Positions 1,597 through 58,700 of a stretch of 64,000 bases of DNA are shown piece by piece. Both the position numbers and the translations under genes were made by a program. The notes under the pieces are model-generated. The model had not been told where the DNA came from and ran no database searches. It saw only the letters and a program-made list of their open reading frames with translations. This stretch comes from Rugalucina vietnamica. Its lineage: Eukaryota; Mollusca; Bivalvia; Lucinida; Lucinidae. The DNA lies in NCBI GenBank assembly GCA_964017185.1, contig OZ024870.1:23955621-24019620 (forward strand), read 5' to 3'. Positions within the stretch are counted from its first letter, which is position 1. The number at the start of each line of letters is the position of its first letter.

Positions 1597-4500
1597 TGGC
1601 ATAATGTCACTCATGGCAATCTCGTTGAGTCTTTCCAAGTCGGATAACCCTTTGGTTTGTCTTGATATTTCAAAACACTTTCTTCCTAGAAATTGGAATC
1701 AAGAACCCAATGACTACAAAGGCAATGAAGACTGCGCTGTGATATACACCAGTGGAGAATACAACGACGTCAACTGTGCATCTCATGCTGCCGCTATCTG
1801 TGAGATAGAAAAACAAGGTGATACTGCAGAGTTTATGTTTGTCTCGATAAATCCGTAAACCGTTTAAAATGTACGACTTTATAAACATCATTTTCTTAAG
1901 AGGTAATCTTGATTACGTTTTCTGTCGTTTTTGATCCTGAATTATACACATAGGAATAAGTTAGAGAACACTTTTAGCCCCTGGGGAAAGTTTGAAAAAT
2001 CCATTTCCTTTCTTCTGGCGATACTGAAATTTTTATCACATATATTTCATACTTTGGCCTAGCTACAGACCAATTTATGGAAATTCACAACATTTTGTCT
2101 TTGTGCTACGGAGGATACAATATGCCATATGTGAAAAACTCCACTTTTACTGAATACAAGTTTGCCTTTTTGCTTCTGCACTCCGCAAAACTCATTTTTT
2201 GAAAGCGAAACAGGAATAAAATGTTGAATCTTATCGTTCTGAATGAATACACGACTTCGGACCTAAAACTTCAATGCTTAATCTCAAAACCAACTAATCA
2301 TACAAATCACCGCTGTATCTGGTGTGGGTTCAAGCCCCGCTCTAGCCACATGTGAGACAAGCCAAGTTCTGCTTGCGGATGTGCCAGGTGGTTTTTCTCG
2401 GGGTTCTCCCGTAATTCCGCTAGGACACTATAACCAGAACGTGCATGTTAAGATTCCTTAAGGGTCATATCGAATATCTGGCCTAACATTTACAACCTGC
2501 AAAATGTATACCCAAAGAACGAAACGTGATAATGAAACCTAACCCCGGAAAACTATGGACCTACCGCCGACAGTCGGTCAGAAAATAAAGAATTTGTGAT
2601 CAAAGTTCAACAAGCAATGTCTCAGTTTTATGCTTACGAAAAATTACGACAATGTGAGTTCAAATAATGAAGTAATCGCAAAGACTAGCAGTGCGTTTCT
2701 TAAATTTAGCAAACATTTTCTGAATAAAAGATGGCCGTTCTCCGCCGCAGTTTTTGTTTGATGCTAACCATTTTCACATAGAAGCAACTTCGGATACTAC
2801 AGATTTTGACAACTTATCAAAACATCTTTCATAATTTTTACAAAGAAAGATATTCACAGTCTAAAGTTGGTGGTCACATTATTACAGGTGTTCCTTAACT
2901 TATTTCCATGTGTATACATTGGGCAATTCTATTTAATACTTTTGCTAATACATAAAGTGCATTAAGGTATTTTTTTTTCATACATAATCCAATTGTATGT
3001 CTTTTACGTTTACTAAAGTACATAAAGTTATTTTTCATACATATTCCAATTGTCTGTTTTTTACGTTTACTAAAGTACATAAAGTTATAGTTTCATACAC
3101 ATTCCAAGTGTCTGTCCTTTACGTTTACTAAAGTACATAAAGTTATTTTTCATACACATTCCAATTGTCTGTCTTTAACATTTACTAAAGTATATAAAGT
3201 TATTTTTTCATACATATTCCAATTGTCTGTCTTTTACGTTTACTGAAGTACATAAAGTTTTTTGCATACATAATCCAATTGTGTGTCTTTTACGTTTATT
3301 AAAGTACATACAATTATTTTTCATACATAATCTAACTGTCTGTCTTTTACGTTTACTTCTAATAGTCCGGTAGCACCTTAAGACATTGTTATACAGTGTG
3401 CCATTTCTTTCTTGTCCCGTCTTGGTATGGTGACATAATAACATTCAGTTTCACTACATATACATGCATCTTTGTCCACATTATTCTTTTCAGCATCGTG
3501 TCCGACACCAGCTTGGTTGAGCAGACCCTCTGACGATGACCCGTCTCTTGTTAGCTGCTATTTTCTCACACCGTATTCCAACACGAACGTGACCATGACT
3601 CAATCAGAGGCTACTGACTACTGTAGGCAGTTGGCGGTATCCAGTAATGGAATACCGGACTTGGTGTCTGTCAACACACAGGCGGAAAAGGTACTTCATA
3701 ACAGAACATAATTGGCATAATATTTTTTTTTTAAAATTCATGTATATAGATGTCAAAATATATATTTAAATTAAAATCGTCGTAGGGCTTTAAAGAGTTA
3801 TATGAGAAATAAATATTGCATGTGAACGATCCCAAAACTTTGTATTCATCCTTCACGTCTTTGACAATTATGACCGTGTCAGATAAAATGATATCTCTCA
3901 TTTCGTTTTTGTTACTAATTCGAGAAACCTAGGATATGTCCGTTAAACCTGGTTTATCTATTACATAAACCAGGTTTAACGGACATAAACCAGGTTTAAC
4001 GGACATATACTAGGTTTCTCGATCGTTATCCTAAGTTTCATTACATAAACCAGGTTTAACGGACATATACTTGGTTTAACTACAAAACCTATGATAACAG
4101 CTGTTAAACCTGGTTTATGTGATGAAACCTAGGATAACGATTGATAAACCTGGTATATGTCCGTTAAACCTGGTTTATGTGCGATGAACCTGGTTTAACA
4201 ACTGTTATCATAGGTTTGGCAGTAAAACTTAATATATGTCCGTTAAACCTGGTTTAAGTGAGGAAACTTAGGATAACGATCGAGAAACCTAGTATATCAG
4301 TGATGTAGATAATTATTTTTCACAATGCGTACTGTACATCAAAATTAATGCACGCTGCGTACCGACAATATAACTGTGTACACATTTTTTGAGGATTCTT
4401 ATTCTAACCTCTCATTTAGAAGCAATTAAACTTGTAGACTTGTACTCGTATGGATAAGACAATTTATTCAATTAATGAAAATTCAAATAAATTGTTTATC

Positions 4501-5798
4501 AATCCTGAAATTACATGTTATTCTAATATTTAGGCATGTTAAACCATACTTTTGTCCCCTGCATGGGAAAAAAATAGGAAAACATGATAAACTGGGCTGG
4601 CTGTAGAACATGGAATACATCAAGTTTTAAATTAAACATAATGACCAGAAATCGATTCAAAATGCCTATTCAATAAACAAAAGTGACACACTAAACTTCA
4701 TGAATAAATCTTTGGTAAACGATTTGTCTGGCCGAGGAACTCAACGGAGAGCACGTGAAGATACATACTATATTGCATGATTTGTTAATATTGAACGAGC
4801 AAAAGCTACATTAATATTGTAACTACTTTTCCATTGTTGACATAGCAGCCAGACAAAACTAGTTGAAAAATTGTCATTTTGTGATAATTATAAAGTTTTT
4901 TTACCTGAGTACGCATAAAACCGAAAACTGTTTGCGTACCGCTGATTTTTACTGCGTACATGGTACGCACAGGTCCGAATTTTCTATGCGTACAGAGCGA
5001 AAAATTGTGCGTACATACGCAGTACGCATCGTTATCTATTTCGCTGTATATGTCCGTTAAACCTGGTTTATGTCCGTTAAACCTGGTTTATGTCCGTTAT
5101 CGTAGGTTTTTCTGCCAAAACCTATGATATCAGTCCATACCAGGTTTATCTAGTAAATGTGGAGATAAACCAGGTTTTACAAACTTTGTCATATTCTTTA
5201 ATATAGTAGGCAAGCCAAATGCACAATAATTCGAGAAACATATCCTCCGCCTAGGTTTAAGGAAGGAAACCTATCCTTCGTCACGTGATTACATATACCA
5301 GGTTTCTCGATTTTTCATTGGTTCTAGCCTAGATATCGCCGAAAACGTTAAACCTGGTTTCTATGAATCCGATTGGCTAGCTATCTGTTCGGGAAATCTG
5401 CGTCATATTTGTTTTTGTCCCATGCAGGCCTCACCTGAGCTAGCCCAGGTAATTATAAGCATACTATCTCCGGTAATTTTACGAGACTTTACGAGAATTC
5501 CCGATGATGACTTTAATCCATTTATCTCTAGTGTTTTTATAAGGATGTAATCAACATTTTTATGGCTTTCACTGCGATTTAGTATTCTGAAGATGTTAAT
5601 TGTTTAATTGTAACATAGAATGTAGGTTCCCGCGATTTGACTGCAATGAAACTATAAATTAACAAAGTAGTTTTGGAAAATGTTTGTAACAAAACCAAGG
5701 ACGCTGCTACATGTACATGTACTTGGTGGGTGGTTATATCAGGGCTTAGCACAAAATATGCACAATGCCGATTCTTGTTTAACAATGCGTATATAATC

Positions 5799-5838
<40 letters not shown>

Positions 5839-5993
5839 TTGTTATTTTTTGACTTTTTTTTTCAATTTTAAGACACCCGGTGCCAATCTGCATCATAATG
5901 TTCGCATTTAGAATTAGCATGAAGTCGTAAATCAATGTTTGCGACTATGCTCTTTCCTTATGTGGTCTTTTCTTTCTCTCTCCTTCCTTCTCG

Positions 5994-6043
<50 letters not shown>

Positions 6044-6915
6044 CAGCAGTCACACATTAGCGTATAAGCCAAACGCGTGCCGGGCGTGTTGACAAAAAAA
6101 GTTAAATTCAAGATACACCAGGCGCACGTCGAAGACACGTTAGAAGCGCATTACTCCGCGTTTTGAACGCTTGGTTTACGCTTGATGCACGTTGATATTC
6201 GTCGCTGTGCGCTCCAGGCGCATTTAGGGCCCATTTTTTTAACATGCTTAAAAATTTTTCTACAAGCTCAGCGTGTCCCGGGCGTGTGTCTTATACGTTT
6301 CGAATAAGTTTCACACACGCGCGTTACCAGGCGCGATGAATACGCTTCGAACGCGTTCGGTGCAGGCTTTAGGCATGCCAGTGTACGCTTCATGCGCGTT
6401 CCGATTTTATGAGATAGTGCTCCAGTAGCGTGTCCCCAGCGTGTGTAAGACGCGCAATGGACGTTTGTTGTGCGGCATGTAGCGCGTGCATATCGTGTTT
6501 AGGACATACACAAAAACGTACTCCAAAACTTTGAGATTTTTAATACGTCAGGCACACGCCTCAGTCATTTGCTACTGTGTGACTGCTAAAGCGAGTACAA
6601 GGAACAGATTTTTATACGTCCAAAATCTTCAGCGTGTTGAGATTTTTCATATGCCCGGCGCGCGTTTGTGTCATACGCTACAGTATGACTGCCGTTTTAG
6701 TTTACTTCAATTTTGAGATCCCCGGTGCTAATGTGCACCATAATATTCACATTTTAAAATTAGCATAAAGTCGTAATTCAATGGTTGCGTCTATGCTCTT
6801 TCTTTCTTTCATTCTTTCTTTCTTCCTTTCTTCGCATACAGCACTCTGTATTTATCCAAGATTTTTATATTAAAGAGCAAACATTTCATTATTTTATAGA
6901 AACACGCGAAAAGCG

Positions 6916-6953
<38 letters not shown>

Positions 6954-7334
6954 AGATAGATAGATAGATGCCTTCTTTATTATTGTATGTAGCTTACAGC
7001 AATAGAAACGAATGGGATTATTAAGTATTCTGTATATTATAGTATATCGAGTCAAGATCAGGATTAAGTGGTCGACTTGGCCGGCCTGATTGAATATACA
7101 ATAATTTTGACACGTGACGCGTGCCGAATGTTTATTCTCAACCTCCCTGGCCAAGTTGCAAAATTTGAGATATTTCATTGAGTAAAATTCGAACAACAAA
7201 CAATGACCAAACAACTAATGTATTCAAAACCGCTCGTTGAAAGTTGTCGAAATTTGCGGAACATAAGACGTATTAAAGTTGTCACTTGTTGAAAATGCGT
7301 ATTTCATTCATGGAATTATGCACAGTATTGAAAT

Positions 7335-7373
<39 letters not shown>

Positions 7374-8053
7374 TTTTAAAGATTTGTACAGAAATCACAT
7401 GTGCAAACATGGGCCGGTTATCGCTAAAAAATAAGTATGTGATCAATGTTGTTATTATGTCTTAAAATGTATATATTTTATGTATTTGATACGTGTCACT
7501 CATTACAAATAAACTATTAAACTATCAAACTTTAACACGGGGATGGCTCATATGATGCTTCAAACTGCGGGTTTCCGGTTAATACGGGGTTAGGGCATGA
7601 AGAAACTATCCTTGATGAAACGAAGTTAGTGAGTGTTTCGGTCCCAACTACATGTACAGCTGTATTTGCCAAACAGATCGATCTTTACGACATGTTGACA
7701 AAACAATTGGGCATTGATTAATCATATCCCAATATTCCCAAAAGGCGCGAAGGTCTGAATGTATAATGACACATTAGTAATTGCCAACTATGACATTTGT
7801 TAAATATGACCGCATCAAGGCAGATCACAGCTTTATTTTTCTATATACCGTATATTTTTTTGAATGCGGTGTAAATTTTGCGGCTCCTGTTAATTTTTAT
7901 TTCCTTTGCGCTTTATCATGCTTTCCTATTTATTATGACCTATACAACTAAAAATAAAATCTGGAACCTCGGATTCTAACCGACGTAGCATCTTTTTTTA
8001 CAGAAGCCGCGTAATTTACACCGTATCGAAATTTATTTATTTATTTATTAATT

Positions 8054-8117
<64 letters not shown>

Positions 8118-11100
8118 TTTTCTTTCTTTCAAAGAGTTCATTGATATATTTTGTTTTGTAAAGAATTCGCAAAGAATGACCAATCAGATTGTGAGAAACC
8201 TGGTTTAACGAAACACGTGACATATTTACCTGGATGAACGATCCGACCAATGGAATACCGAGAAACTTGTGATATCAAAACACGTGACCTGGGAGAAAAA
8301 CCTATGCTCGGGATAGGTTCGGGATAGGTTTATGGAAACCTATCCCCCGCACAGGTTTAGGAAAGAAAACCTATCCGGAGGACAGGTTTAACGGAATAAC
8401 CAATGGAATACCGAAAAACTTGTAATATCGAAACACGTGACCTGGGAGAAAAACCCATGCTCGGGATAGGTTTATGGAAACCTATCCTCCGCACAGGTTT
8501 AAGAAGGAAACCTATCCAGAGGACAGGTTTAACGGAATAACCAATGGAATACCGAGAAACTTGTGATATCGAAACACGTGACCTGGGAGAAAAACCTATG
8601 CTCGGGATAGGTTTATGGAAACCTATCCTCCGCACAGGTTTAGGAAAGGAAACCTATCCGGAGGACAGGTTTAACGGAATTAGTGTGCATTTGGCTTGCA
8701 GCCTAAATTGAGATTTTACGAAAGGGTTGTTAAACCAGGTTTATCTCTTTTTACCTGTGATATCGCAAGTTTTAAGTAAAACCTATGATAACAGTCCATA
8801 AACTAGGTTTAACGCACATATACCAGGTTTAACGCACATAAACCTACGATAACGGACATAAACCAGGTTTAACGGACATATACTAGGTTTCTCGATCGTT
8901 ATCCTAAGTTTCATTACATAAACCAGGTTTAACGGACATAAACCAGGTTTAACGGACATATACTAGGTTTCTCGACCGTTATCCTAAGTTTCATTACATA
9001 AACCAGGTTTAACGGACATATACTAGGTTTCACAGGGAGAAACCTGGTATAACGATCGAAAACATAGGTTTAGGGAAGTTAACCTAGGATAACGATCGAG
9101 AAACCTGGTATATGTCTGTTAAACCTAGTATATGTCCGTTAAACCTGGTTTATTTAACGAAACTTAGGATAACGATCGAGAAACCTAGTATATGTCCGTT
9201 AAACCTGGTTTATGTCCGTTAAACCTGGTTTATTTTATAATTTATGATAAGCGCGATGACTTTGATTTTGATATAGTAAATTTTCCTTTTTTGGATGGTG
9301 ACGTTCCTCGTCGTGCTTCTTATGGTGTATACATTTCGCAACTTATTAGGTTTGCTAGAGTCTGCAATCATGTTACAGACTTCAACGCTCGAAATAAATG
9401 TTTAACGGCAAAACTTTTCCAACAGGGCTATCGGTATCATAAACTTCGAAAAACCTTTTCTAAATTTTATCGTAGACACTATGAATTGATTTCCAAATAT
9501 AATGTTGGGTTAAAGACACTTTTAAGTGAGGGCCTTTCGGAACCTGAATTTTATGGTGACTTGGTTTACAAATTAAAGAAACTTAAAGGAATAAATGATT
9601 TTTCTCTTCAGTTCGGAAAAATCATATCACGTTACAGACGTATAGGTTATAACTTGAATGTTATGCGACAGTCTGCATGCTTAGTTTTTAACCCAATCAT
9701 GGTTGATAACTATGCTGCCTTCTTTAATTGCACGCCGGTGGGTCGGGCGTCAGACTCTATGATGGCCCCGACTTAAAGCTATTCATTTTAGTTGGTTGGG
9801 GCCGGAGCTTCTTGTCTGTTGCTTGGCCCACCGGGGTCCAACTGGTGTTTTTCTTTTGCTCCGGAGTTAGTAGGTTATTCGGCGCCCAGGGATCTCCATC
9901 GTCGGGCAGCTTACTCAATCTGTGAGTCCTGGTTTTTGATTCATCAGGATGTTTATCATGATTTATTTGTTTGTTCTTGATGATTCATTGACTAGTTAGA
10001 GATTCACCACGAGGACCGAAGAACTAACTAAATGTTGTGAACCACTGCAGAAGCTGAGGGTGAGGTTAGGTACCTGTAAAACCGGTTTAAGCCCGCCAGT
10101 AACTTTGTGTTACTGATCGTTCCAAGTCGATACTTCTGTAGTGGTTCTTTTTGTTTTATGTCTTGGTGTTTAAAATTTTTTGTGCTGTTGGCGCCTTATG
10201 TATGTTTTCATATTTTTAGTTAAGTTAAGGTAACTGAGTGGCCACCTATTGGGAAAATAGCTGCTCATTCGGCTTACGATATGTTTCATGGTATAAGTAC
10301 CTGATTGTTAGTTTGGTTTTTTCCCACCTCGGTTTTTGGAGTGGGAATCTTTTTCTGATTGCGCCTTTTCCTGATCTTTGCCTACTTGTACCTTTTTATG
10401 TATTCCATAAACCAGGTTTAACGGACATATCCTAGGTTTCTCGAATTAGTGTGCATTTGGCTTGCCATAAGTTCCTCTTCTGTAATATTATATAAATACA
10501 CGTAGTACATGCTATCGTTCAACTCTTGAATTAAATGTAAAGAAAATATTTATGCTTACTTGCCGTATCCTACACAACCTAAGCATATAGTATTCTAAGA
10601 TAGGAACATTGATAGTACTTTGTTTTCAAATATTTCAGACTTTCATAAAATCTACTGTGGCAAAGTATTCTGATAATCCATATGGTTGGTGGACCTCACT
10701 GAATGACAAGGAAACAGAGGGATTCTGGTCATTTAGTGACTCGTACTTGACAGACGCGTCCTTGGTGTAAGTAGATGTAATGAAAATTCATGCACAAATC
10801 CTTGCACACTGTGCATGTGTGTTTTGTGTTTATCAGTGTGGTTATATTAAGTGTCCATTTTATTATTGAAAATTAACGAAACACTTCAGTTTGCTACAAA
10901 ACCCGCGTAGAGCCGAAAGCAACGATCGCTCTCCTGACTGAGATCCAAGAAGTTGAAAATGGCACCAATATACAAAAGAAAAACAAATTCGTCAATTTTC
11001 AGATTAAGATATCCAAATACTAAGCGCGAAGACACATAAGGAAAACATGTCCGTTAAAAGTATACCCTCTCGAATCCCAATTTTATATAGTACAACTGGG

Positions 11101-12015: not shown

Positions 12016-12102
12016 TACAGTAGACACTTAACACTATACAGCCATTACGTTAACAATAGTCTTGTTTTTAAACCATTTTATGGGAATACTGGTTACATGA
12101 CT

Positions 12103-12338
12103 GAGCCGCGACGCGAGAAAACCGGTCTTCGGAGTTTCCGACCAGCTCTGACACAAACCGACCTGTACAGTCACAGAAGCAGGCTAGAAGCTTGAAGTTT
12201 CGGATTTAAGAAGAAGAGAAATTGTACTATCCGTGTAGCAAAAACAAAGGCGCTGATCAGCTTCGCAGTTACTGCGAAGCTGATCTGCGCCTTTGTTTTC
12301 GCATAGGCAAAAATTCCGATTTTCACACGATGCGGCTC
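12103..12338. mobile_element. GAGCCGC hairpin MITE, copy 1
   Basis: Ends are GAGCCGCGACGCGAGAAAAC and an inverted ...GCGGCTC. The core is a near-perfect palindrome, CTGATCAGCTTCGCAGT against ACTGCGAAGCTGATC, next to GCGCCTTTGTTTTCGC. No matching target duplication is seen (GACT against ATTG). It lies between the two convergent lectin genes. Confidence 0.9.
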
Positions 12339-12645
12339 ATTGTAGTAAGCATGTTGCAAACACCGATAAAGAACAATGCTCTGCCATTTTTTTCTTGTGT
12401 CAAAAAACACTGAAAGTAAAGTCATTCAGGCTTTAAAGAAATCGAATTCGATAATATGAGAAACAGGTGTAATAATAGAATATCAGGGAACATCATTTTT
12501 TTCTTAAACTGATATTTTTTTTAACTATGTCATTTTGTTGTTGCACACCCCTTTTCTTATTGTTATTATACTTGGAAATAAAAATAATGTTGTTGTGTTT
12601 TACATCCTGGCATTCCTGTACAAATCAAATAGGCCGAATGAATTT

Positions 12646-12884
12646 GAGCATCGACGATTTTGGTTTCCGACCAGGTCCGACACAAACTGGTCTGTGCAGT
12701 CACAGAAGATTGCTAGAGGCTGGAAATTTTTGGAGGCTGGAAATTTTGGATTTAGAAAGTAATGGAATTGTATTATTTGTGTAGCGAAACCAAAGGCGCA
12801 GTTTAATACTGCGAATTTCTGCGAAACTGATCTGCGCCTTTGTTTTCGAATATGCAAAATGTTGGTTTTCTCATGCAGTGGCTC
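12646..12884. mobile_element. GAGCCGC hairpin MITE, copy 2
   Basis: Same family, with degraded ends (GAGCATCGACG at left, GTGGCTC at right). It is flanked by a perfect 4-bp duplication, ATTT at 12642-12645 and 12885-12888. It ends just downstream of the stop codon of the minus-strand lectin gene, so it may lie in that gene's 3' UTR. Confidence 0.9.
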
Positions 12885-12934
12885 ATTTGTTCTGATATTA
12901 ATTGATTTTTTTCTGATATTTTCACACTACATTG

Positions 12935-15900
12935 TCACACTAAATTCAGTGTCAATAAAAATATTGCCAACAGAATGGACCATTTGCTGATGAGTATTCT
13001 TGAACCAACACTTGTACCTGGAAGGGAAAAATATCAATACAATGGATTAATTAGATTTTCTAAATCAATGTTACCTTTAATTGACATTCAATGTGACTAA
13101 CTTTATTATACAATTGTTGCCCTTGAGTGAGGGTGACACCCGAGGCAGGTTATATTGCCCAAGGGCGAAGCCCGTGGGCAATATAACCTGTCGAGCGTGA
13201 ACAAATCGTCATGTCACCCTCACTGAAAGGCAACAATTGTTTTATTATACCGAACCACTTTTAAAACAAATAATCGACATGCCACACGACAAACGTATGT
13301 GACTACAAGTGCAACTGCACATTTAGGCGAATATGACGTCAGAGGGTAATATGATCATGCGACATGACAGAATAGCACCCTCCACGTCCACTGCAAACAA
13401 ACGCATGTGACTGCAAGTGCAGCTCCACGTTTTAAGGCAGATATGACGCCAGAGGGTAATATAATTATGCGACATGACAGAATAGCACCCTCCACGTGAC
13501 ATGCTCTGGACCAATCAAAATCCACACTCAGTCAATGAATATTAATGAGGTATAATAAAAGCCAATGTATTTTGATAGTATTATAATTCCACCTGTACTT
13601 CTGCCAAGTTTATTGTCTGCAAATGAAGAATTGTTTCACAAATATTACTGTAGAAATAAAGTTTGACGTAATGAAGCTGACTTACCCATAAAACCGTATG
13701 CTGGTTTCTCGCATATATATCCCATTTTTATACTACACTTCCTGTTGATGTAGGCACCACCGTATATAACAAAAGCACAATTCTCGTCCAAGTTGACATA
13801 ATGTGGGAATCTGCTCCAAGGTCTTAAAATAATAAGAGTAACCAGATGACCAGTTCTGTTAACGCTCACCTGGGATCTGAGATATATACCAATGATCTTG
13901 TTTGACTATTATTGTAGTACTCTAGTCCCACTTGCTACATGTCAAGTTTTGTTACAATACGTTAAGCACTTCCAGAGAAGATTTTTGAAGAGTTTTACCA
14001 TATATGGGCATGGTGGCCATCTTGGTCATGTGACCTGGATTATTAATGAATACAATGGTTCCCCCTTCATATAGATGCGTCCTATAAATTTTTCACTTTG
14101 CTTGGCCAAGCGGTTTCAGAGAAGAAAATATATGAATATGATGGTCATGTGACCTTGATTATTTATAAATACATTGGTCCCCGCTTCATATAGATACTTC
14201 CTATGAGCCGTCCCATGGGAAAACCAACAATCTGCACAGGCGAAAAAAAGGCGCAGATCAGATTCGCGGTAACCGCGAAGCTGATCAACGCCTTTTGTTT
14301 CCGCTTCTCGGATAGCACAATTCCTCCTCTATTTAACTCCAAAAGTTCAAGCTTCTAGCCTGCTTCTGTAGCTGTACAGCCCGGTTTGTGTCAGACCTGT
14401 TCGGAAACCACATTGTTGGTTTTTCTACGAGGCGGCTCATATATTATTCATATAAAATTTGGATTTGATCGGCCGAGGGGTTTCAGAGAAGATCTTTAAA
14501 AATGGTGGACGACGACGGGCGGATGACGAAAGGACGGACGACAAAATGCCTGCCGGTCCTATAAACTAGGAGAGCCTTCGGCTCAGGTGAGCTAAAAATT
14601 ACATGCAGCACATGGCTGAATTATAATGAATATTTTAAAACAAGTATAACATTAACAAAATAACGTAGTTGTTTTTGAAAAATAACGTAGTTGGTTTTGA
14701 GTGTAACTCAGACAGAGTAACTAATGATGGCTAGAACAGCCATCAGTTCTATAACAGCCATCAGTTCCTCTCTTTCTCTGCATAAATATGCAATTGCAAT
14801 CATATAAAATCGTTTTGATGACAAAGTACCGTCCAACTTGATAAATTGGTGCTTTAACACTTACATAAATCCTGGTTGTGGAAGTGGGTTGAAAGTTGTG
14901 TCGAATGCCCAGAAGCCCTCGTGCCCACTGTCAGTCAGGCCCGTAAACCAATTAAGATAAGTCTGGGGGAGTCGCCGCAGATGGTCCGTTACAAAATCCT
15001 AATTTTTAAAAATCAGTAGAAAGCTCACGATAAAATGATGACATTCTGAATACTGACATATTTGAATATTGGTGAAAATGGTCCAATACGTGTTATAGGT
15101 AAATGATTCTCAATTCCCAATCAGAATACTTTTCTAAACAGTATGGACTCTGGTACATGTATAAATATTGCCGGTCATGGGCATCGCACTGATGAATAAA
15201 TTGTATTTTGTTTTATCAGACCTATTACATGTACATGTCCTGTAAGTTTCCAATTAACTCGAGAGTGAACGTTTTTGACTACATAAATAACAAAATAAAT
15301 AAAGATTATAACCGTAGTCAGTATGTTAATGAGAAAAGAGATGGACCATACCGCAGTTTCGGCTACTTAAGCCTGGTGACCCTTTAGATTTGGCAACATG
15401 GAGCCAAAGGGAAAACTGTAACTTTAATTTTGCAACTCGATAGAAAGACTAGTATTATCTAAAAGAATCCAAATACTTCAAACTTTGGTTAGAAAATGAA
15501 TCCGATAAGTTTCTGATTTCTTAGAATATCCTCGCTGATCTCAAAGGATCAAAAGGAAATATAATCTGCACTGAGGATGATGTATGGGGATACATTCAAG
15601 GTCGCCACACGGCACAATACCAGCAATATACAACAAGCTGCTTTCAAGAGCATGGTTAAACAATATTGACCATGTACGAATGTGTTCCCGAAACAAAATT
15701 CAAAATATTCAATTTAGGTCATTGCGTAGAAAGTAGAAAAGATGAATGTTTTAAACTTAATTAACCGTAAATTATGATATAGTTAACATAATTACTAATT
15801 CTGGTTCATCATTTGGTGCCCACATGTAAGACTCGAGAGGACTGCTCAGTTGCTGACAGGTAGACCTCGCCTCGTCCTTCGTCACTGTGGTGTTGCCAAT

Positions 15901-43323: not shown

Positions 43324-46300
43324 TCTCTCTCTCTCTCTCATGCATGAGCGCGCGGCCTATGTAATGGCAACAAATATGTCGATCCAACAGCAAGGATGTT
43401 CAGATACATGTGCCTTTCGCATACAAAGTCTTGGAGTGCTCCAGACATAAACGTAAACATTTATATCGCAAAATCTAGACCGGTCCGCTGTAGATCTGCT
43501 GCAAGTGTGTTTCAGTTCAATATCACTTTTGACTGTCTGACCAAAGACTGCGGGCTTAAAGCTAACCGGCTGCATGTGTACGCTGTAAGTTTTCTTTTAG
43601 AACAATTTACCTACAGTACTGTAGTTACAAGGCTTGTCTTATCGTACCCACTAATTGACGCCTTACTTTGTCCGTTTATACAGTGCTTGACGCTATGGCG
43701 AAACCCGAGACGGCTGTTTTAACAGGAAACTTCAAATGGCTTGGTGATTTTGACGAATGTATCGGTAGCCAGGCTTCTGTAAATACATCAGGGGCAATAA
43801 CCCATCCATGGAAGGGCACTTACTGTACACTCACCTTCAAGTTAGCTCCTATTGGCAAGGTAAGATCTAGTTTTTGGCATAATTAAATGAACCCTATGTT
43901 TAGTAAGTCTCATTCGCAAATGTGTCAGGCGTTTTTTGCAAGATGTTTTTTAAATTAACTACATGAGTAATGTAATTGGTTTTCAATGACTGATTTTGTG
44001 CTTTCGATTAAAATGATAGTTTTTAAGAACAATTTGACTCTATGAAATCCTAACAGATTTTTTGTCAGTTAATTTAAACCAATATGGAATCTCCGAAAAT
44101 GCTATGAAACATACGATGCTTTGACCATGTTCTTAATTTATATATTTATTTCCAGAAAATCGGTATGGACTATTCTAAGAGTCCTTTTGGTCCACCGTCA
44201 CTCAATCTAGGACTCTGCTTACCAAGTGGTTGTTCAGATATGGATTTTGATATAATACTTTATAAGGGTAATATTTTTCTGTGAACAACTTCATATGAAT
44301 TTTTAAATAAAAGTCAAACGGCACAGACTGAGAATGACATAAACTCCAATTATTTTGTTGTCGGAAAAAAAATCAAGACTTTACCTAGACTTTTGTCTCT
44401 GTTAAACGGCTATATAATTGGATATACAGCTGTACATGTACCTTTGTTAAAATCAAAAGCGTAAATGTATGATGCCTCTCAAACCCCAATACCTATATTG
44501 TAAGTGCTCAGTAGATTATGATTAACATTCATGTATGTAAGATGTATTCAAAATGTTTTTCTGTATCATGCAAGCTTTGATAAAATAAACTTTATTTCGA
44601 GAATTTCGACAAACTGTTATTCATTTTGTAATAAATCATGTATATAATAGATATTCTTATTTCAAGGTCTTGAAATGCTGAAAGTTAACGCAACACCATA
44701 TACCCCGTATGTCACGTGTCACAAAGAAATTGAAGATTATGACACAAAAGCCATAGTTGCCATGTAAGTGTTTTAGCGGAAGTTAGATATTTTAAATAAT
44801 GTTAAATCATACGTACGTGATTACGAAAACTCAACTTTCTGTAGTGGTTCTTTTTGTTTTATGTCTTGGTGTTTAAAATTTTTTGTGCTGTTGGCGCCTT
44901 ATGTATGTTTTCATATTTTTAGTTAAGTTAAGGTAACTGAGTGGCCACCTATTGGGAAAATAGCTGCTCATTCGGCTTACGATATGTTTCATGGTATAAG
45001 TACCTGATTGTTAGTTTGGTTTTTTCCCACCTCGGTTTTTGGAGTGGGAATCTTTTTCTGATTGCGCCTTTTCCTGATCTTTGCCTACTTGTACCTTTTT
45101 ATATTTAAAAAAAAAAAACCTGCCATATAACTTTAATTGGTCTGCACTGACTACAGACAATGTTATTTAAGTTAGCAGGATCATCCCGTTTGGCACCATG
45201 CTTCCATTGTGATAACTGAATTATAACATCGACGCATTTAGCCAAATGTACACTTCTACAGTTAACAAAGGCCCACAATTACTCATGTGTGCTTTTTACA
45301 CAAAGGTTTAACTGAGTTCAAAATGGCCCAAAACAACAGAATAGCGTGGTGTTGAACTATATATCAACAGTTTTTATATCCTCATTGAATGTATGCATAT
45401 CATTTTCAGAGTAATATGTTCCATTTTTGGAGTATTGATAGTATCGGCTACTCTCTACGACGTGATTTTACAGAACTGGCCTTACAAGCAGGGAAAAGTC
45501 TTGCCAAACTATTCAGTAAGCGCTTTGATTTGCTTTCATTTTAATTATTCTGAAAGCATTTTACGGACAATAGCTATAAGAATACAGAGACATTTTCTGC
45601 AGAGATATTTCTATCTCATTTTGGCATTATGTATTTTCCAGAACTCAAACGGAACAGCCAATGTATATGTTGTAAGCAATGGAATAGACGGACCAACGGT
45701 CAGTGGTGAACAAATGGCAAATGGAACCAAATTACCCATTGACGAAACACCAAATGAAAAAGTGTCAGAAATGGAAGTGGATGAACAACCAACGTATAAG
45801 CCAAAGGCATATTTCAAACATTCAGGTAAACAAGCCGGTAAAAGCATTTAATAAAGTTCACTGCATAATAGTCAGTGAAAGGAACTTGCTCTTATTTTAC
45901 TGTCAAGGCCAAAATGATCTAACAATTCATCCAAGTATATACATCTATTTAAAGGAGTCATCATTGGAATTTATCCGCATTCTATCTTACTCAAAATATA
46001 TTTCCTAGTGAAAAGAAATGAATTTTAATAAAAAGACAGCTAAACCCCGTTGGTGGAAAAGCATGCTCATACATCAAGGGTAGTTTACTGCGCATTATAG
46101 TCAACACTTTCTAGTATGACAAACTATCAAAAGGCACAAGGAGGCAACGATAAGGAAAAGGCGCAATCAGAAAAAGATTTCCACTCCAAAAACCGAGGCG
46201 GGAAAAAACCAAACTAACAATAAGGTACTAAGACCATGAATACATTTAGTAAGCCGAATGAACAGCTATTTCCCAATAGGTGGCCACTCAGTTACCTAAA

Positions 46301-49300
46301 CTTAACTAAAATATGATAACATACATAAGGCGCCAACAGCACAAAAAATTAAACCCAAGACATAAAACAATAAGAACCACAACAGAAGTATCGCCTTTGA
46401 ACGATCAGTAATATAAAATTACTGGCGGGCTTAATAAAATATAAAGGTTTGATCCTTGGAAGCAGTAAAAATATTTAAAGGGAGATAGTTTGGACTATAT
46501 TGCGCAATTTCAGGTAATGAACCCTCATCAGTACTGTAGCCCTTTTCAAACCGGCAACGAAAACCAGACTATTGTGCTGTAATTTCGAGAATTTTACGTG
46601 AGAAGTCTAAATCAAAGACATATTCCTAAACGGGGTCAAATAATTTAAACATTGTTTAGAAGTATGTTTCTAAACGTGATTGTTTTGAACTCTGAATATC
46701 TTTACTGATCTCAAAGGACCTAAATAAAATATAATCTGCACTATGGATGATGTACAGGGAGATTTTTTAGGGCCGCCACACGGCACAACACCAGCTGCAG
46801 TAATAGCAAATAAAATATAAAGGTTTGATCCTTTGGAAGCAGTAAAAATATTTAAAGGGAGATAGTTTGGACTATATTGCACAATTTCGGGTAATGAACC
46901 CTCATCAGTAGCCCTTTAAAACCGGCAACGAAAACCAGACTATTATACTGTAATTTCGAGAATTTTACGTGAGAAGTCTAAATCAAAGACATATTCCTAA
47001 ACGGGGTCAAATAATTTAAACATTGTTTAGAAGTATGTTTCTAAACGTGATTGTTTTGAACTCTGAATATCTTTACTGATCTCAAAGGACCTAAATGAAA
47101 TATAATCTGCACTATGGATGATGTACGGGGAGGCTTTTTAGGGCCGCCACACGGCACAACACCAGCTGCAGTTATAGCAAATAAAATATAAAGGTTTGAT
47201 CCTTTGGAAGCAGTAAAAGATTTAAAGGGAGATAGTTTGGACTATATTGCGCAATTTCGGATAATGAACCTCATTAGGATCCTGTTAAACCGGTTTTACA
47301 GGATCCTAACCTCACCCTTAGCTTCTGCAGTGGTTTCATAACATTTAGTTAGTTGTTCGGTCCTCGTAGTGAATCTCTAACTAGTCAATGAATCATCATG
47401 GACAAACAAATAAATCATGATAAATTCCATGATGAATCAAAAACGAGGACTCACAGAATGAGTAAGCTGCCCGACGATGGAGATCTCTGGGCGCCCAATA
47501 ACTTACTAACTCCGGAGCAAAAGAAAACCACCAGTTGAACCCCGGTGGGCCAAGCAACAGACAAGAAGCTCCGGCCCCAACCAACTAAAATGAATAGCTT
47601 TATGTCGGGGCCATCATAGAGTCTGACGCCCGACCCACCGGCTTGCAATTAAAGAAGACAGCATAGTTATCACGTTTGAAATTTGCATATTTATTTATAG
47701 CACACCCCCACGTTACTTTCCCTTTCGAAAAGACTCTTGGCCTGGGAACGACATTGGTAAGGCAACTCCGGTCTGTCAATTGTCATTATCCAACCGCTGT
47801 CACCAAATGTAACGTGGCCGAACAACAGCAACAGTTTCACCCCGTCAGTGGAAGACCATGCCAATCCACCAAGGGTGGCTTACTGTGCTATACAGTCAAC
47901 ACTTACTAATACCACAAAACACCGAGTTTATAATTTGCATATCTATTATAGCACACTGTCGTACATGTACAACTATGATTTATGCATTCTAACTTCAGAC
48001 AAAATCAGTAAAGCACTTCTTGCCTTTTCTGTGTATACTAATGGTGCGAAGATTCTTAATACCAACCAACCAAAGGGCACACTGACGGCGGTAAATGGAA
48101 TACGGTTTATCAGCATGTCGTGGGTAATTCTTGGACACGTGTTTGCATTCCAGCTTCCTGCCTCATGTAAGAATATAGATCATAAATTTACATTTCGTTG
48201 CTAATATAGCTTCTAGAATGATTATTATAACGTGTGAGCCTTAACCCATAAACGTAGATCAAAGACCTAAAACAATTTTATCAATTATACAAAAAAAGGA
48301 GAAAATATTTATTAAAAAGTAAACGTAAGCAATGATCAGGAAATGACGCATTCAGAAAGAAAACACTCCAAGAACCAAGGTGGAAAAAAAAAAACAAATA
48401 GACAATACGGTTCTAATACAAAGAGAACATATCGTAAGCCGAGTGAGCAGCTTTTTCCCAACATGTAGCCACTCAGTTACCTTAACGATATATGCAAACG
48501 GGCTTAAACCGGTTTTACAGGACCCAAACTTCTGCAGTGGTTCACAACATTCAGTTAGTTGTTAGGTCCTAGAGGAGAATCTCTAATTAGTCAATAAATC
48601 CTCAAGGACTAACAAATAAAGTATGATACACGTCTTGATGAATCTCTGGTACAATGAGCTGTCTATAAAAACGTTTATTCAGTATACTATAGTCTTCTTT
48701 TAAGCTGACAATATTTAACTAACATACATGTAATTAAATCAGCTAAAACAGACGGCATGTCATGAAATGCAATAAGCTTTAAAAAAGCAAGAAACATTTT
48801 AACTTAAAAAAAAAATAAAATGATTTTCAGCAAACTTGGGCGACTACCTCCAGCGATCAGCGAAAAACTTCGACTTTCAAGCAGTTCTTAACGCTACAGT
48901 TTCTGTGGACACCTTCTTTACTTTGAGGTAATTTCTCGGACTTAAACTGCACCATCATAGTTTTGTTTTATTAGTGTACCGTTTGTACCGATGAGTTAGC
49001 TTTGCGTACTTAGAGGTATTTTCTCAAATTATGAACCGCAACATTTAGCTCTCTTAAACTAACCTTAGCTTGGCTCTTAAACTGAATTTAGTTTTTTATC
49101 AAATAAAACTGAGTTTCTCGGTCGCGTCTTCTCCTCAAACTTATATGTAAAGCATTTCTAGATACATTGTTAAACAAGCATTAACTTCTAAAGATATAAA
49201 AACTACGTACACGTATCGTAATATGCTTTAAGATTTTTGTTTGAATTGATGCTTGACGTCCTAGTCAACCGCTATGGTCATGTCGGGACGTTGCCTCCAT

Positions 49301-52300
49301 TTTATGCGACTTTTACCCTAGATTTTGACGTCTTGACATCCAAAAAGTGCTTTAAAATAACCACCCAACTAAGCCATTATGGCTTATATGTATGGATGGA
49401 ATGGCTTAAAACTAATTTTCCTGGGCAGACTCAGGCTTGAGCGGTGAACTAGTAATCAGATGGTCAGATGGTCAGTCAGTAGCGTATAACATTTGCCTGG
49501 AGGCACAAGCAACACATTTTTTTCCTCTAGGTCTAAATGGGCGGGCCCGATTTATGTGTTTTTGTATGTAGAGGGCATTACAATTGAAGAATAAAGCAAT
49601 ACATTCACTCTTGGTCTGTTTAAATGAACAAATCTGATTAAATTTCGATTTTCTATCCATAATCGACATGTATTTTAATTGTCTACGTTTCAGTGGTTTG
49701 CTGGTGTCTTATTTGTCTCTGAAAGCAATGAAGAAATGTCAAGGGGCCAAGAAATTCAAATGGGGAATGTTTTACTTTCACAGATTCTGGAGGTATAAGA
49801 TACTCATTTCTTTTGTACAGACTTGCTTCGCATGTTAATTAAATGTAGCAAACAGGACCCAGTTGTTCAAGGCATCGTTAGCTTAACGATATCGTTAAGA
49901 CATAAATTTGTTAAGCAAATATCAGCAAAAGTAACAAATACATTGTTATTTTTTGTTGAAAAAAATGTGAGAATCCTTTGCACTGCAAAGGATTCTCACA
50001 TTTTGTCAACAAAAAATAACATTGTATTTGTAATATTAACGTTTGAAATTTTAACGAAACGTTAACTAACGACGTCGTTAGTTTTGAACAACTGGGCCCA
50101 GTTTGCTTTAAATGGTCTAGATGGAGTAATTTAATTGTTGGTAATGTTTATTTTGTGGTCCATTGTGCCAGTCAACAATGTTTCAGCCATGTCTGGACGG
50201 AACCTACACTTCCTATGTAGTGACCACTACTATGGAGAAAATTGGTCTTGCTTTAGCGAACAACAAGGTGCCAGTTGGTTTCGAACTTTCTCTTTGGAGT
50301 CTTACCTCTACCACTAGGCCTAGGTGCTCCCTCAGATTGAAAAATTAGTGTCGCACTTTTTGCAATCTCTTCAACCTCATAGCCCCTAATGACTGAGGGC
50401 AAACCTTTCTCCTACAAGTACATGTAAACTCTATGTACATGTAGATTGTTGTTATGTACATGTAATGATTCTGTTGGTTTTGTTTATAATAATGAGCCGC
50501 ATCGTGAGAAAACCGGATTTTTGCCTATGCGAAAACAAAGGCGCAGATCAGCTTCGCGGTAACCGCGAAGCTGATCAGCGCCTTTGTTTTCGCTACACGG
50601 ATAGTACAAATTCTCTTCTTCTTAAATCCGAAATTTGAAGCTTCTAGCCTGCTCCTGTGACTGTACAGGTCGGTTTGTGTCAGACCTGGTCGGAAACCCC
50701 GAAGACTGGTTTTCTCGCGTCGCGGCTCATATAAAGTTCATGTACATGATGCATTTGAAAGTCTCAATTATATTCATTGTAGATATAATGGTTTTAGAAA
50801 CCATGTCCTACATGCCTGTATTCCAGTTTTTCTGGGCCACAAATTAGTTTCACGATTTGTTGCAGGTTAACTCCACCATACATGCTTTTCATGATGTTCA
50901 ATAGTTGCTTGGTCCGATACCTGTACGACGGGCCCCAGTGGACAATAGGCGATGATGATAAGTGTCTGACATACTGGTGGCGAAACCTCCTTTACATCAA
51001 TAACCTCTTCCCGGCCAAAGATTTGGTTTGTAGGAATATTTTCATGCACATGTACCAGAAGTGTTCATAATACCATCCTCGACAGATGGGATAACTTCAT
51101 CCTTACCCTTCCGGCCTTCAATGTGTTTCATAATTCGACGCATACAATCAAAGTTTCACACCAGTTCTTAAAAGGATCATTTTTAATTCATTGTTTTTTT
51201 ATTTATATTTGAAGAGAAACTATATCACATATAACCCCAAGTTAATGTAACACGATATAGTACCATAAAGGTAATGTAAACGAGAAAGAAGCTGTCCCTA
51301 TATTTTGTAACTCGAATGGGAAACGAAGTGTAAAACGTCTATGGCACGACAAGGAATGTTCAAAAGCATAACTGGCATGTCATCGCTCAACTTCTAACCA
51401 CTGAGATTTTGCTAGAAGTAATAAAGCATTTGACCTAGTCTATTTTTAAAATATTAAAATCCCTACTATAGTAAAGTAAGGATATCGACGCAATTAAATT
51501 TAGAGTCCCAACATAGACATCAGGTGGAAAAGAAAACACATAAAACATAACAAAACAGTTTTCCGACAACACACTCGAAGAGTAGAATTACTAGCTCATT
51601 CCTATCAATGTAGCTTTCCGACTAGTCACAGCCAAAACAAAAGGTAACAAGCACAACAGAAAGGCAGGACAATAAACAGATGATGTATCATAAACATCAT
51701 GATATTGAAAGAAAATTTTCTATTTTTCAGTGTATGGGTTGGTCTTGGTATCTTGCTAACGATATGCAGTTCTATATTCTGAGTCCTCTGATGCTGTTGC
51801 CTCTTTACTAGTAAGTCATTTTGACCATTCACTGAACGAATTTAAGTGTCATACCAAATATTCCGAAGATGAATGTTCGTCTTTTACACTGAACGTAGTG
51901 CTCATTGACGACTGTGTCCAACGAAATATTAATATAACAATGCGTTGACCCAAAACAACAAAGATATTTTGATATGTTCTCGCATTTGTTTCATTTTAGT
52001 ACCATCTAGTTCCCTTTAAAATTATCAACTACATTTCTTAAAAAGTTATCCGTTTGATCTTTGTAATTTTACATTTTGCATTAGCTATATTAGAGCAATA
52101 GTAGTGTTCAATGCACTTTCAAATTTCATAATACAAAACATTTTTCAGCTCCACAGTACTGGGTACGCTGTCCTGTGCGCTACTGTTGGCAGTATATAGC
52201 GTTTCTTCTGGAGTGGTTTCACACCGGGACCACCTATCCGCAAATATGATCTATGATTCGTACGTATATACAATGTAGATTCGTGTACATAGAGATTTCA

Positions 52301-54367: not shown

Positions 54368-55260
54368 CTAGATTCAATGTGCATTTGTTCTCACTTTCAA
54401 AGACACACATTTGCACAATACTACTAAGTGTCGCCCCCTCCTCCCCCCCCCCTTCCCCGCCCATTGGGGTTTTGAAAAGCTACGCAAGCTAAGTACCGAT
54501 TGGCTTCTCCTCTGCTTACTTGAAATACATGTACATAGTAGCCATAGTTGTTTCTTTTGGTCTAATGTGGATTTAATGACATCTCATTGTTGGTTAGAGG
54601 TCCCATGAAATCGAGACAACGTCTCGACATGACCATAGCAAGTGAATTGTGTGTTAAGCAACAACGTAGTTACAATCCACAAATGCACATGTCACTTGCT
54701 TTTACAACGAGGACCATTTGATTATGACTCGTGTCTTTTGGCTGGGTAACACCGCCGTTTGCCATTTACTGCTCTAAATAAGGTAAGTAATAGTTACTGT
54801 AGATGGAATTATTTGGTGCACGACAGGTGGGCTTCATTGTTCATAAGTATACTGAAAATCAAATGTATTGCACCAACTTGATGTTGCTTTTTTTAATTTT
54901 ATGATTGATTGGATTTTTTTCTGACATTGGCCTTGGTTAATTTCACTATCAATTACATGTACTTCACTTTGCAGCAAAAAGAGTGTGGATGGTAATGCAA
55001 AATGTTAGGGGCAAAAAGTATAAATCTGCAATTTGGGGGCAAAAAAAGTTAAGGATTCTATCAATAAGTTTTCATTGTGCATGTGATGTGCATAATGTCA
55101 GTTTCAGAAAAACGACAAAACCTTTTCAATTGTGAGAACTGGGAATTTATTTTTTTTAAATGGATTTTCAGGATATGTTAATCTGTGTTATACAAAATTG
55201 AACATTTGCGCCCAAAACAAAGTTGTACATTTATTGTTTAGGGAGGTGGTAGTTACATAT

Positions 55261-55480
55261 GAGCCTGTGCGTGAGAAAACCAACAATTTGGGTTCCGACC
55301 AGGTCCGACACAAACCGGGCTGCACAGTCACAGAAGATGGTTAGAGGCTGGACATGTAGAGGAATTGTACTAGTCGTGTAGCAAAAACAAAAGCGCTGAT
55401 CAGCTTCGCAGTTACTACGAAGCTGATCTGCGCCTTTGTTTTCGCCTATGCAGATCGTTGGTTTTCCCACGCGGCAGCTC
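55261..55480. mobile_element. GAGCCGC hairpin MITE, copy 6
   Basis: GAGCCTGTGCGTGAGAAAAC to GCGGCAGCTC with core CAGCTTCGCAGTTACTACGA. Perfect ATAT duplication at 55257-55260 and 55481-55484. Confidence 0.92.
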
Positions 55481-55757
55481 ATATACAATATCCTGAAACA
55501 ACGACTTGAAACTAACTTATGTGGTAGTTAAATCATTTGATCAACTGTTATTGAAATTATAGACAGCGATATTTCAGTGATATTTTATGACTCATTCATA
55601 AACCCTGTGAGATGTACGAGTACTTAGAAGCTGCACTAACGGTTTACATGTTTTATATACTGCATAAAATACTTTGATAACTACTATATGTGGGACAAAC
55701 GTTTATTTTTAAAAGATTGCATATGTTTGCACAATCTTATCTATAGTCCGAACAAAA

Positions 55758-58700
55758 ATGGCGTTTGATTTTAGTGGAAAGAAAATTCTTGTTACGGGAG
55801 CTGGCAAAGGGATCGGACGTGAATTAGTAAAAGCAATAGTGCAAGCAAAGGGAGAGGTATATGCGATCGGTAGGACAAAGGAAAATATTGAATCGCTCGC
55901 GGAAGAAGTGAGTAATGTTCATCCGATGTTGGTTGATTTAAGCGCCTGGGAAGCAACGAAGAATGTGCTTGAACAGCTCGAGGCTATGGATGGAGTGGTT
56001 AACAACGCAGCAATATTTAATCAGTCTCCCTGTGAAGCACTGAATATGGGAAAAGACAGACTGGTCGAAACGTTAAATATTAATTTGTTGGGTGTAATAA
56101 ATGTTATACAGGTGACAGCTAAGAAAATGATTGAATGTGGAAGAAAAGGTTCCATCGTTAATGTGTCAAGGTAATGTTCACAGGGCGTGTGACAGGTATA
56201 TGTTCAAATTTCCATTAGTCCAAGTGTGTGTGCAACTGTCCGTCTGTCACAACGATCCACGTCGGAGTATGATAATAGCTGTCCCAAATGTCCTTGACAT
56301 TTGAGCCGCCTCGTGGGAAAACCAACAATGTGGTTTCCGAAAAGGTCTGACACAAACCGGCCTATACAGTCACAGAAGTAAGCTACAAGCTTGAAATTTT
56401 GGATTTAGAAAGTAGAGAAATTGTACTAACCGTGTAGCGAAAACAAAGGCGCAGTTACTGCGAAGCTGATCTGCGCCTTTGTTTTCGCATAAGCAGATTG
56501 TTGGTTTTCCCATGAGGTGCCTCATTTCATGGTCCGATGACTGTCAATTTTAGTTTAAATGCTGAAATTTTTCAGCACCTGTGACATCTAGTTGGGTGAA
56601 ACAGTTTCAGTAGGGTATTTGTCATTCATCTATAAAGCACGCTCCATCGACTGTAAATTTTATTCACGTAATTCAAGTCTTGTAATATAGGGCACAAGTA
56701 TCAGGGTAAAACATTTCATAACAAGTGGCTTCGGCATACTCTACAGTATATACAGAACAGTTTGAATGAATGTGTCTATTGTGATTATTTTGGTGGGAAG
56801 GGTGGGGCAGTTTTGGCATATTTTGTCTGTTCTCGTTGTTAGGCATCTTCATATTCACAACTGAGATCGAAAACAAGACCTGCAGATCGTAGTGCAATGC
56901 GTACAGCTTGTCCCGGAAATCAATTTAAACGCCACAAAGCGTGTAAGGCAATTGGGATGATCGTAGTTCAGAACGTGCTGCAGAGTGATGGAATGAGATA
57001 TCGTAGACAATCGTAGCAAAGCGTGGTAAAGCATAACAAGAACGTGTCAGGATCGTGGTGGAGCGCAATGAATCGTGTGCTAAAAACCATTATTACAGAT
57101 CGGGTATCAATTGTGACTTTATCGGACCAAATCGTAACAAATCGCATAAGCACGTATGAAGTCGTATCATCTCATATCTAAACTAAACATTAAGTTAGAG
57201 ACGTTCCACGATTCGATACGAGTAGCGAATCGTGATGATAGCAACGGATCGCGTGCTACATGCAGTGTGAAAGCTGCAGTACGCTATTTTCATCGGTTTT
57301 GTAACGGAAGTGGAGCGATGTCACGAAATGTATCAGAGGGCAGGTTAGCCAGCTGATCTATACGCTCTCCTGCAATGGCACGACAAGATTTGATGCGTTT
57401 TGTTACGATATGTCGCGCTTTACTACGATCTCCTGCGATTTCGGCGATTTATTACGATCTCTCAAGATATAACGGAAAATCCGGATGATCGTTGCAAAAT
57501 ATTTGTATCCCAAAACACTTGTTCCGATTCCCCAGATCATCACGATTCATCCACGATAACGATCAAGATTTGACCCCACGTTCCCCTACGCTCACCGCGA
57601 TTCACTCAAATCGTGGAGATCGGGGAGATTCGTGGTAAGTGTAAACCTAACATAGCTGTGAGGGTAAATTCTACATATTAAGCGGTCATCGTGTGGCTCG
57701 GTAGCTCAGTGGTAGAGTGTTCGCACGGTAAGCGAGAGACCCTGGGTTCGAGTCCAGGTCGGGCCACGTTCTTTTTCCACCCTTGTGACATTTGGTGGCT
57801 CCGTGTGGGTCCGTGCTCGGGCTGCGAGCAGCAACGAGACTGCCTCGTCGGTTCCGAGCAGCTTCGGGATCGAATTTAATTAAAAGACCCATATCGAATA
57901 GTCGCATTTGACGATTCTCTTATCGTTAATATATCAACAACATGTTTCTTATTAGGCTAGAAAATCAAATTTTCTAATGTTTTACATTTTGAACATCTTT
58001 TTATCGAAAACAAAACTGCGCTTTACGCGGTGTCGGAAAAGGGCCGAAAAATCAAGGGGGAAAACTCTAGCGAGACCAAACCGGAAGTGACGTTTAGTCG
58101 TACAAAATATCAGCCATTTAAATGAAAGGCACACAAAGTAAATGCTTACACAAAACATTTTACACCATGCAACGCCGACGTTTTACTTTTTCTTGTTCTT
58201 TGATAATTATCAACATTTATATCGGAAACATTTTATAAACAAAACATAAAAGGAAAATAAATTATGGTACATTACTTGCATGTGAAAATAGCATTTCGCA
58301 TAAAGTCCCGCATTTGAACCAGTTTTTATCACTGACAACTTCTCGTAGTTCATAATCTTTCTTTTGTTACGGCCGCTAAAACAACAAATTTGAATACCCG
58401 ACACTTTTATTACCTTACCTTACGCGGTGTGTATGTTGGTGATCTATGATGTTTTTAATGTGACACACGCCGACACACGCCGCTAGATTGCGGCATATAT
58501 CACTCGGCGGCACGTGGCAGATACTCAAAGACATTCCAATCTCATTGAGTAAACGAGTCTACCGACATTGACTTTTGTTCTAGATATCCTAATGCTTGAA
58601 TTAAGAATAGACCACTATTATTTTGATCTTTCTTTCTACATTTAATCAAATGTAGATTTACACGCATTTATTATGATATGATTTTTAAGTAAGCGACGTC

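Follow-up and report, generated by a model that had tools for sequence, protein, structure and literature searches.

The window analysed here, a stretch of 64,000 nucleotides from the lucinid bivalve Rugalucina vietnamica (contig OZ024870.1, positions 23,955,621 to 24,019,620), harbors five elements, E1 to E5, each bearing variants of a short word of its own. The interiors of E2, E3 and E4 are largely made up of degenerate units, about 10 bp long and bearing CpG, and the arms of E1 of units of 20 bp, and in E1, E2 and E3 the unit resembles the terminal motif of its own family. E1, E2, E3 and E5 are best read as non-autonomous cut-and-paste DNA transposons of separate families, and E4 is probably another one. 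We propose, with a probability of about 0.58, that the arrays of these transposons are multiplied putative transposase-binding sites and that such sites fill the interior. The original prediction for this DNA listed four equal elements of a single architecture, each saturated with a private word in both orientations. E5 was missing from that list, and the four are not equal, since E1 turns out to be a nest of insertions, E2 lies inside it, E3 is nested in itself and the ends of E4 are unreadable. What holds of the description is that every element has its private word within a common design, the common part being mainly the spacing.

Spacing and helical phase of the words

The CpG-bearing words are spaced by 10 bp in E3 and E4, 11 bp in E2 and 20 bp in E1, which is close to one or two helical turns. 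Measured against 100 mononucleotide shuffles, base identity peaks at lag 10 in the core of E3 (0.39, z 9.0) and in E4 (0.36, z 7.5) and at lag 11 in E2 (0.34, z 5.0); the highest z in three control stretches, over lags 4-40, was 3.5 at lag 26. Furthermore, CpG pairs at these distances exceed those of 200 dinucleotide shuffles, with 29 pairs vs 5.8 at lag 10 in E3 (21372-22274), 17 vs 4.4 at lag 10 in E4, 15 vs 5.1 at lag 11 in E2 and 8 vs 1.0 at lag 20 in the right arm of E1 (0/200 shuffles each), and 4 vs 0.4 at lag 20 in the left arm of E1 (1/200). E5 is weaker in this respect, with 4 vs 0.8 at lag 5 (2/200), 3 vs 0.8 at lag 10 (7/200) and 4 vs 0.8 at lag 12 (1/200).

The lag-10 signal was rejected as a general property of the window, being absent from 24001-44000 (10 pairs vs 12.1). 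That same region has more CpG pairs at distance 9 than its shuffles (22 vs 11.9, 0/200). Among 11 other repeats scanned at lags 9-12, that at 12661-12888 has a small excess at lags 10 and 12 (2 vs 0.2 each; 3/200 and 2/200, respectively) and that at 39287-39627 an excess at lag 9 (one pair, 7/200).

The CpGs are also held in phase. Among 41 trial periods from 9.5 to 11.5 bp, with the same maximum taken in the controls, the best is 10.40 for the outer words of E3, 10.55 for its inner copy, 10.05 for E4, 10.85 for E2 and 10.10 for the right arm of E1, and a signal as strong was found in 0/300, 0/300, 0/300, 1/300 and 5/300 dinucleotide shuffles, respectively. A second null, made of 500 permutations of gap order that preserve the distances between neighbours, was matched in 0/500 cases for the outer words of E3, 3/500 for its inner copy, 2/500 for E1 and 9/500 for E2. 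The parts A and A' of E3, which are copies of each other, were counted once.

Word redundancy, strand and match to the ends

The claim that words occur more often than in shuffled sequence was borne out when 6-, 8- and 10-mers, direct and inverted, were counted in each interval against 50 dinucleotide shuffles. All counts in E1 and E3 lie above all shuffles (for instance 502 inverted 10-mers vs 3.8 in E3 and 3917 direct 10-mers vs 45.5 in E1); the redundancy of the whole E1 interval is partly due to microsatellites, and its arrays at 3918-4300 and 8190-9240 taken alone still exceed the shuffles. Five of the six counts do so in E2 (6-mers 163 vs 86 direct and 155 vs 89 inverted; the exception is inverted 8-mers, 17, equal to the shuffle maximum) and likewise in E4 (6-mers 164 vs 93 direct and 185 vs 97 inverted; the exception is direct 10-mers, 2 vs a maximum of 3).

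When words were anchored on CpG with the strand treated as a hidden variable (40 shuffles), the information outside the CpG amounted to 3.07 bits in E3 (shuffle mean 1.02, maximum 1.49), 2.45 in E4 (1.11, 1.39) and 2.92 in E2 (1.61, 2.21). The two orientations are not mixed at random: neighbouring words share the same strand in 74% of cases in E3 (0.46 in shuffles, maximum 0.62) and 75% in E4 (0.43, maximum 0.57). In E3 (0/1000, 51 pairs) and E4 (5/1000, 28 pairs), same-strand units resemble their neighbours more than they do when the order is permuted; in E2 they do not (227/1000, 20 pairs). These like neighbours, together with near-perfect tandem copies in E1 (80-bp period, 97% identity, at 8850-9030; 20-bp period, 100%, at 5049-5099), indicate that short words were once multiplied by tandem duplication.

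Interior-derived motifs were tested on the outermost 61-65 bp of the elements, with 200 shuffles as the null, and those of E1 (z 3.7, 0/200), E2 (z 3.3, 0/200) and E3 (z 2.1, 5/200) match their own ends. The motif of E4 on its presumed ends (z 4.3, 0/200) is not independent of the array because these ends are uncertain and the scored stretches overlap it. Among the 16 off-diagonal tests, a single one fell under 0.05, that of the motif of E4 on the ends of E3 (3/200). Shared ancestry of the words was rejected, as 0 of 10 motif pairs of the five elements correlate beyond the shuffle null at 0.05, the lowest fractions being 0.068 for E4-E5 and 0.090 for E3-E4; the common origin previously suggested from the ends comes down to one short shared string. 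A whole-element hairpin was likewise rejected as a common design; it is strong in E2 (z -5.1, 0/20 shuffles) and in block 21372-21710 of E3 (z -3.6, 0/100), moderate in E5 (z -2.8, 0/20), weak in E4 (z -1.8, 1/20) and absent in block 21940-22274 of E3 (z -0.8, 24/100).

Architecture of the elements

Inverted ends, predicted for all four listed elements wherever readable, are seen in E1, E2 and E3 and also in E5, aligned in each case without a shuffle null, and none was found at E4. The boundaries of the parts of E1, of E2 and of E4 are approximate, and those of E3 and E5 are backed by target duplications; strands are assigned to the copies of E3 and to the retroelement tail described below, and the other elements carry none.

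E3 is a complete element inserted, in the opposite direction, into another copy of its own family. The inner copy (21217-22274, + strand, 1058 bp) has ends TACTGCGTTTACACTATGTTC, word CGTRAC and 10-bp spacing, and it splits an outer copy (20640-22432, - strand) whose left side is without one end part, the part corresponding to 21948-22274. This insertion into a same-family copy accounts for the large inverted repeat of E3, whose pairs are 20641-21216/21372-21947 (95% identity) and 21214-21374/22275-22435 (97%). The inner copy is flanked by a TAA duplication (21214-21216 and 22275-22277), and its flanks, joined with one TAA kept, match the homologous site inside the inner copy itself at 38/40 bases; this is one insertion with its empty site. 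The preserved end of the outer copy is followed by TTA, which reads TAA on the strand of that copy. With TAA as the duplication, the ends would begin with TACTGCG. A core of about 225 bp in E3 is poor in words.

Between the copies of E3 there are 30 substitutions in one stretch of 576 columns, 5 in another of 161 columns and no indels, a few junction columns being counted twice. While the first alignment was made on stretches from an ungapped search, the two stretches adjoin in both copies and so together make up the whole stretch retained by the outer copy. Zero indels and 35 substitutions over 737 columns imply that no word-multiplying process acted between the copies; as far as the window allows, E3 shows the fixed consensus that the original prediction had named as evidence against expansion at the level of words. 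The exact end string of E3 occurs in the literature in two papers that are unrelated by title. Exact end strings gave no match in viral_contigs (two patterns) or genome_contigs (one pattern), where an animal repeat is not expected.

The E1 interval, previously described as a single element with no open reading frame (ORF), is a nest of insertions. Its outer element (3914-10466) is a foldback element, having long inverted arms (3914-5208 and 8704-10466) made largely of short tandem units of 20 bp, TATGTCCGTTAAACCTGGTT and variants. It is broken up by E5, by an inner copy of its own family and by a retroelement tail. The terminal inverted repeat (3914-3969/10395-10450) is 95% identical, and the arms (540 and 598 bp as cut) are identical in 422 of 460 ungapped columns. 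Their alignment has 17 gaps; those of 59 and 21 bp (and loosely 36) are near multiples of 20 and the remaining ones are not. The inner copy (about 5209-8703, boundaries set by reading the sequence) sits at the centre of the outer element, has ends GGCAAGCC that are inverted over a 60-column alignment, and contains E2 and microsatellites. Three of the four termini of the family carry the 16-bp GGCAAGCCAAATGCAC, one of them with a small insertion; it is missing from the left outer terminus. No target site duplication is readable for E1.

E5 (4298-5046) is inserted in the left-arm array of E1 and is flanked by TATAT at 4293-4297 and 5047-5051, a 5-bp target duplication; two E1 units, those at 9122 and 9182, are uninterrupted. 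Its word, TGCGTAC/GTACGCA, accounts for 19 of the 48 overlapping hexamer matches of the window, all at 4326-4362 and 4909-5028 with none in 4363-4908, an ordinary arrangement in which words occur near the ends only.

The retroelement 3' tail (about 9240-10399, + strand) lies in the right arm of E1, its left boundary being set where the E1 array stops, and is no part of the word design. Related stretches occur at six other places in the window, and the matches end at 10399. One of them, 44837-45102, is identical over 266 bp (100%) to 10134-10399 of the tail, which suggests a recent insertion. The tail holds a 194-amino-acid ORF at 9192-9776, without a Pfam match, which we take to resemble reverse-transcriptase elements. 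Rfam SECIS_1 matches at 9751-9818 (+ strand, 39.0 bits) and 47558-47625 (- strand, 37.4 bits; gathering score 35) both lie in copies of this same tail; the former overlaps the ORF stop and has the AUGA, AAA and GA positions. A SECIS-like hairpin inside a retroelement would be odd.

E2 (6037-6700), located within the E1-family inner copy, has ends inverted over a 60-column alignment, word GCGTGT/ACACGC and 11-bp spacing, and no target duplication is readable. It is flanked by a direct repeat (5861-5990/6706-6833, 81%), each copy of which ends in a pyrimidine microsatellite. E4 (56885-57650), with word ATCGTRG and 10-bp spacing, has words mostly on the + strand in its left part and mostly on the - strand in its right part. 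A narrow comparison of its ends scored 14.0, matched by 278/500 shuffles; a wider one reached 32.0, above the highest score of 200 shuffles (30.5), but this match joins word stretches of the interior and not the ends. A tRNA-Thr-like gene (57695-57767, + strand) stands 45 bp from the right boundary of E4; the segment 57679-57752 over it is 84% identical to 60405-60479, and it may be a tRNA-derived short interspersed nuclear element.

Other features of the window

A short repeat family of about 240 bp has at least six copies in the window (12100-12341, 14203-14468, 28861-29098, 50491-50732, 55257-55482 and 56299-56525), with an inner palindrome of about 65 bp at 12238-12302, 50529-50593 and 55381-55445. 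The window has the look of animal DNA, as Pfam scans of translated stretches located a C-type-lectin-like exon at 22601-22759 (Lectin_C, 20.2 bits, under the 22.6 cut-off), an NRF N-terminal domain (28089-28469) and, at 55758 and 60490, short-chain dehydrogenase exons. An Rfam Vault RNA match is located at 61478-61612 (- strand, 38.4 bits vs 34).

Comparison with known transposons

The statement that no named family has this property does not hold, since Foldback-type elements (Galileo, Tm1, Tetris and Drosophila FB), as described in the portions of the literature drawn on here, have long inverted ends with internal tandem repeats. Passages of the Galileo paper (PMC3688188) place sites of its THAP transposase within the repeats of the long ends and call the function of these internally repetitive ends uncertain. 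The foldback ends of Tm1, in the passages concerned, carry 13-15 bp tandem units whose number varies, which makes the two ends unequal in size, and those of Tetris carry tandem repeats of about 220 bp without a conserved ORF. Unlike these, the units of E2-E4 measure 10-11 bp and are very degenerate, and the words of E3 switch strand several times; the target duplications are of 3 bp (E3) and 5 bp (E5), whereas 8-10 bp are given for Tm1 and Tetris.

The hAT elements with subterminal repeats (Ac/Ds, Kat1) are similar in having several copies of a short word near their ends. According to excerpts of the respective papers, the Ac transposase binds the hexamer AAACGG within the terminal 200 bp of each end (PMC3260210), and Kat1 has 6 subterminal hexamer repeats, or 12 if one mismatch is allowed, whose polarity differs between the ends and which are thought to stimulate activity (PMC4763223). 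While the Ac word is a bound site, the words described here are candidate sites with an interior motif enriched in its own ends; they fill most of E2-E4, whereas those of Ac are confined to about 200 bp at the ends and those of Kat1 are few. The 8-bp duplication of hAT elements such as Ac/Ds differs from the 5 bp of E5, and none is readable for E2.

E3 shares with PIF/Harbinger elements, as characterized in passages of PMC4482050, a target duplication (TAA) that fits the TWA rule and inverted ends of tens of bp. Its ends start with T instead of the usual A or G, and no transposase for it is seen in the window; saturation with words is not mentioned in those passages. Taken together, the present elements would fit as derivatives of transposons with transposase-bound subterminal repeats, the sites having come to fill the interior. 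Among the open-licence literature matches listed, judged by title and the start of the abstract, none dealt with helically spaced words inside such elements.

Discussion

The repeated unit is most likely a putative binding site of the transposase that mobilises the family in question. Tandem duplication and inversion of the arms would have multiplied the site, and coding or filler sequence may have disappeared, leaving an interior filled with sites; E5 with words near its ends only, E3 with its word-poor core, and the nearly full E2 and E4 could represent grades of this filling. We propose that many sites are kept because many weak sites would recruit a transposase multimer, that the words are private because each transposase would have its own specificity, and that the spacing is common because neighbouring proteins would sit about one helical turn apart. 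We infer from the sequence that the words are bound by transposase, that filler has disappeared and that the spacing is maintained by selection.

Several observations weigh against this proposal. No transposase was matched by Pfam in 19 scanned translated stretches (10 + 9, one nearly common to both), and the window contains one copy each of E2, E4 and E5 and two each of the E1 and E3 families. The same-strand fraction in E2 (0.52 vs 0.45 in shuffles, maximum 0.62) is within the null, and strand blocks are thus seen in E3 and E4 only. The phase of E4 is no better than that of permuted gaps (109/500; left part, 55/500), and that of 21940-22274 in E3 is equalled by 35/300 shuffles and 271/500 gap permutations. 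When periods from 4.5 to 30 bp are considered, the strongest is 9.00 in the right part of E4 and 5.15-5.50 in 21948-22274 of E3 and in each half of E2, with 10.30-10.80 as the second peak in all of these. Finally, constraint on CpG between the copies of E3, for which a first count in one arm gave 0 changed columns out of 75, was not retained once both stretches were counted (1/108 CpG columns changed vs 17/385 others, p 0.14).

The most serious competitor, which we regard as possible albeit unlikely, is that the arrays are passive minisatellites, in which a unit of 10 or 20 bp was expanded by replication slippage and then decayed, the words having no role and the closeness to a helical turn being coincidental. 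The resemblance between neighbouring units in E3 and E4, the near-perfect tandem copies of E1 and the phase of E4, accounted for by its gap distribution, all agree with slippage. On the other hand, the 10.4-10.55 bp phase of E3 beats permuted gaps over hundreds of bp, and spacings of 10, 10 and 11 bp plus a fourth of 20 bp in unrelated motifs would have to be a coincidence. The match of interior motifs to their own ends also speaks for binding sites, though slippage seeded from the ends would give the same.

Nucleosome-positioning or DNA-bending sequence, in which CpG/SS and WW dinucleotides alternate in antiphase about every 10 bp and wrapping or bending aids the synapsis of ends or shapes chromatin, appears improbable. 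WW dinucleotides do lie 4.4-5.1 bp from the CpG, in phase, in the right arm of E1, E2, E3 and E4 (3.7 in the left part of E4), at CpG periods of 10.05-10.85. Any 10-bp unit carrying one CpG would show such an antiphase almost automatically, the inner copy of E3 has a weak WW signal at the CpG period (power 1.6), and bending has no need of strand-specific, family-private words. The process put forward in the original prediction, which would act within an element to multiply and invert short words and is not known from a named family, is very improbable: past tandem duplication of units in E1, E3 and E4 upholds the multiplying part, but the E3 copies share the same word layout without indels and the large inversions trace back to the self-nesting of E3 and the foldback arms of E1, so that no word-inverting process is needed where they can be traced.

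Elements of this kind are already known; what is unusual is the similar spacing across elements with unrelated words. A bolder and doubtful extension of the binding-site proposal is that unrelated transposon families converged on one internal lattice, with private words following one another for hundreds of bp at close to the helical pitch (about 10-10.9 bp) or twice that distance, where the transposase or a partner would coat one face of the DNA as a filament. If this were true, the element would be a complete loading platform and not two ends plus filler. Furthermore, if the helical register were general in animal non-autonomous elements, the transposase specificity of orphan elements would be readable from sequence alone, and the upkeep of long internally repetitive ends would come with a measurable prediction, namely a period, strand blocks and a match to the element's own ends.

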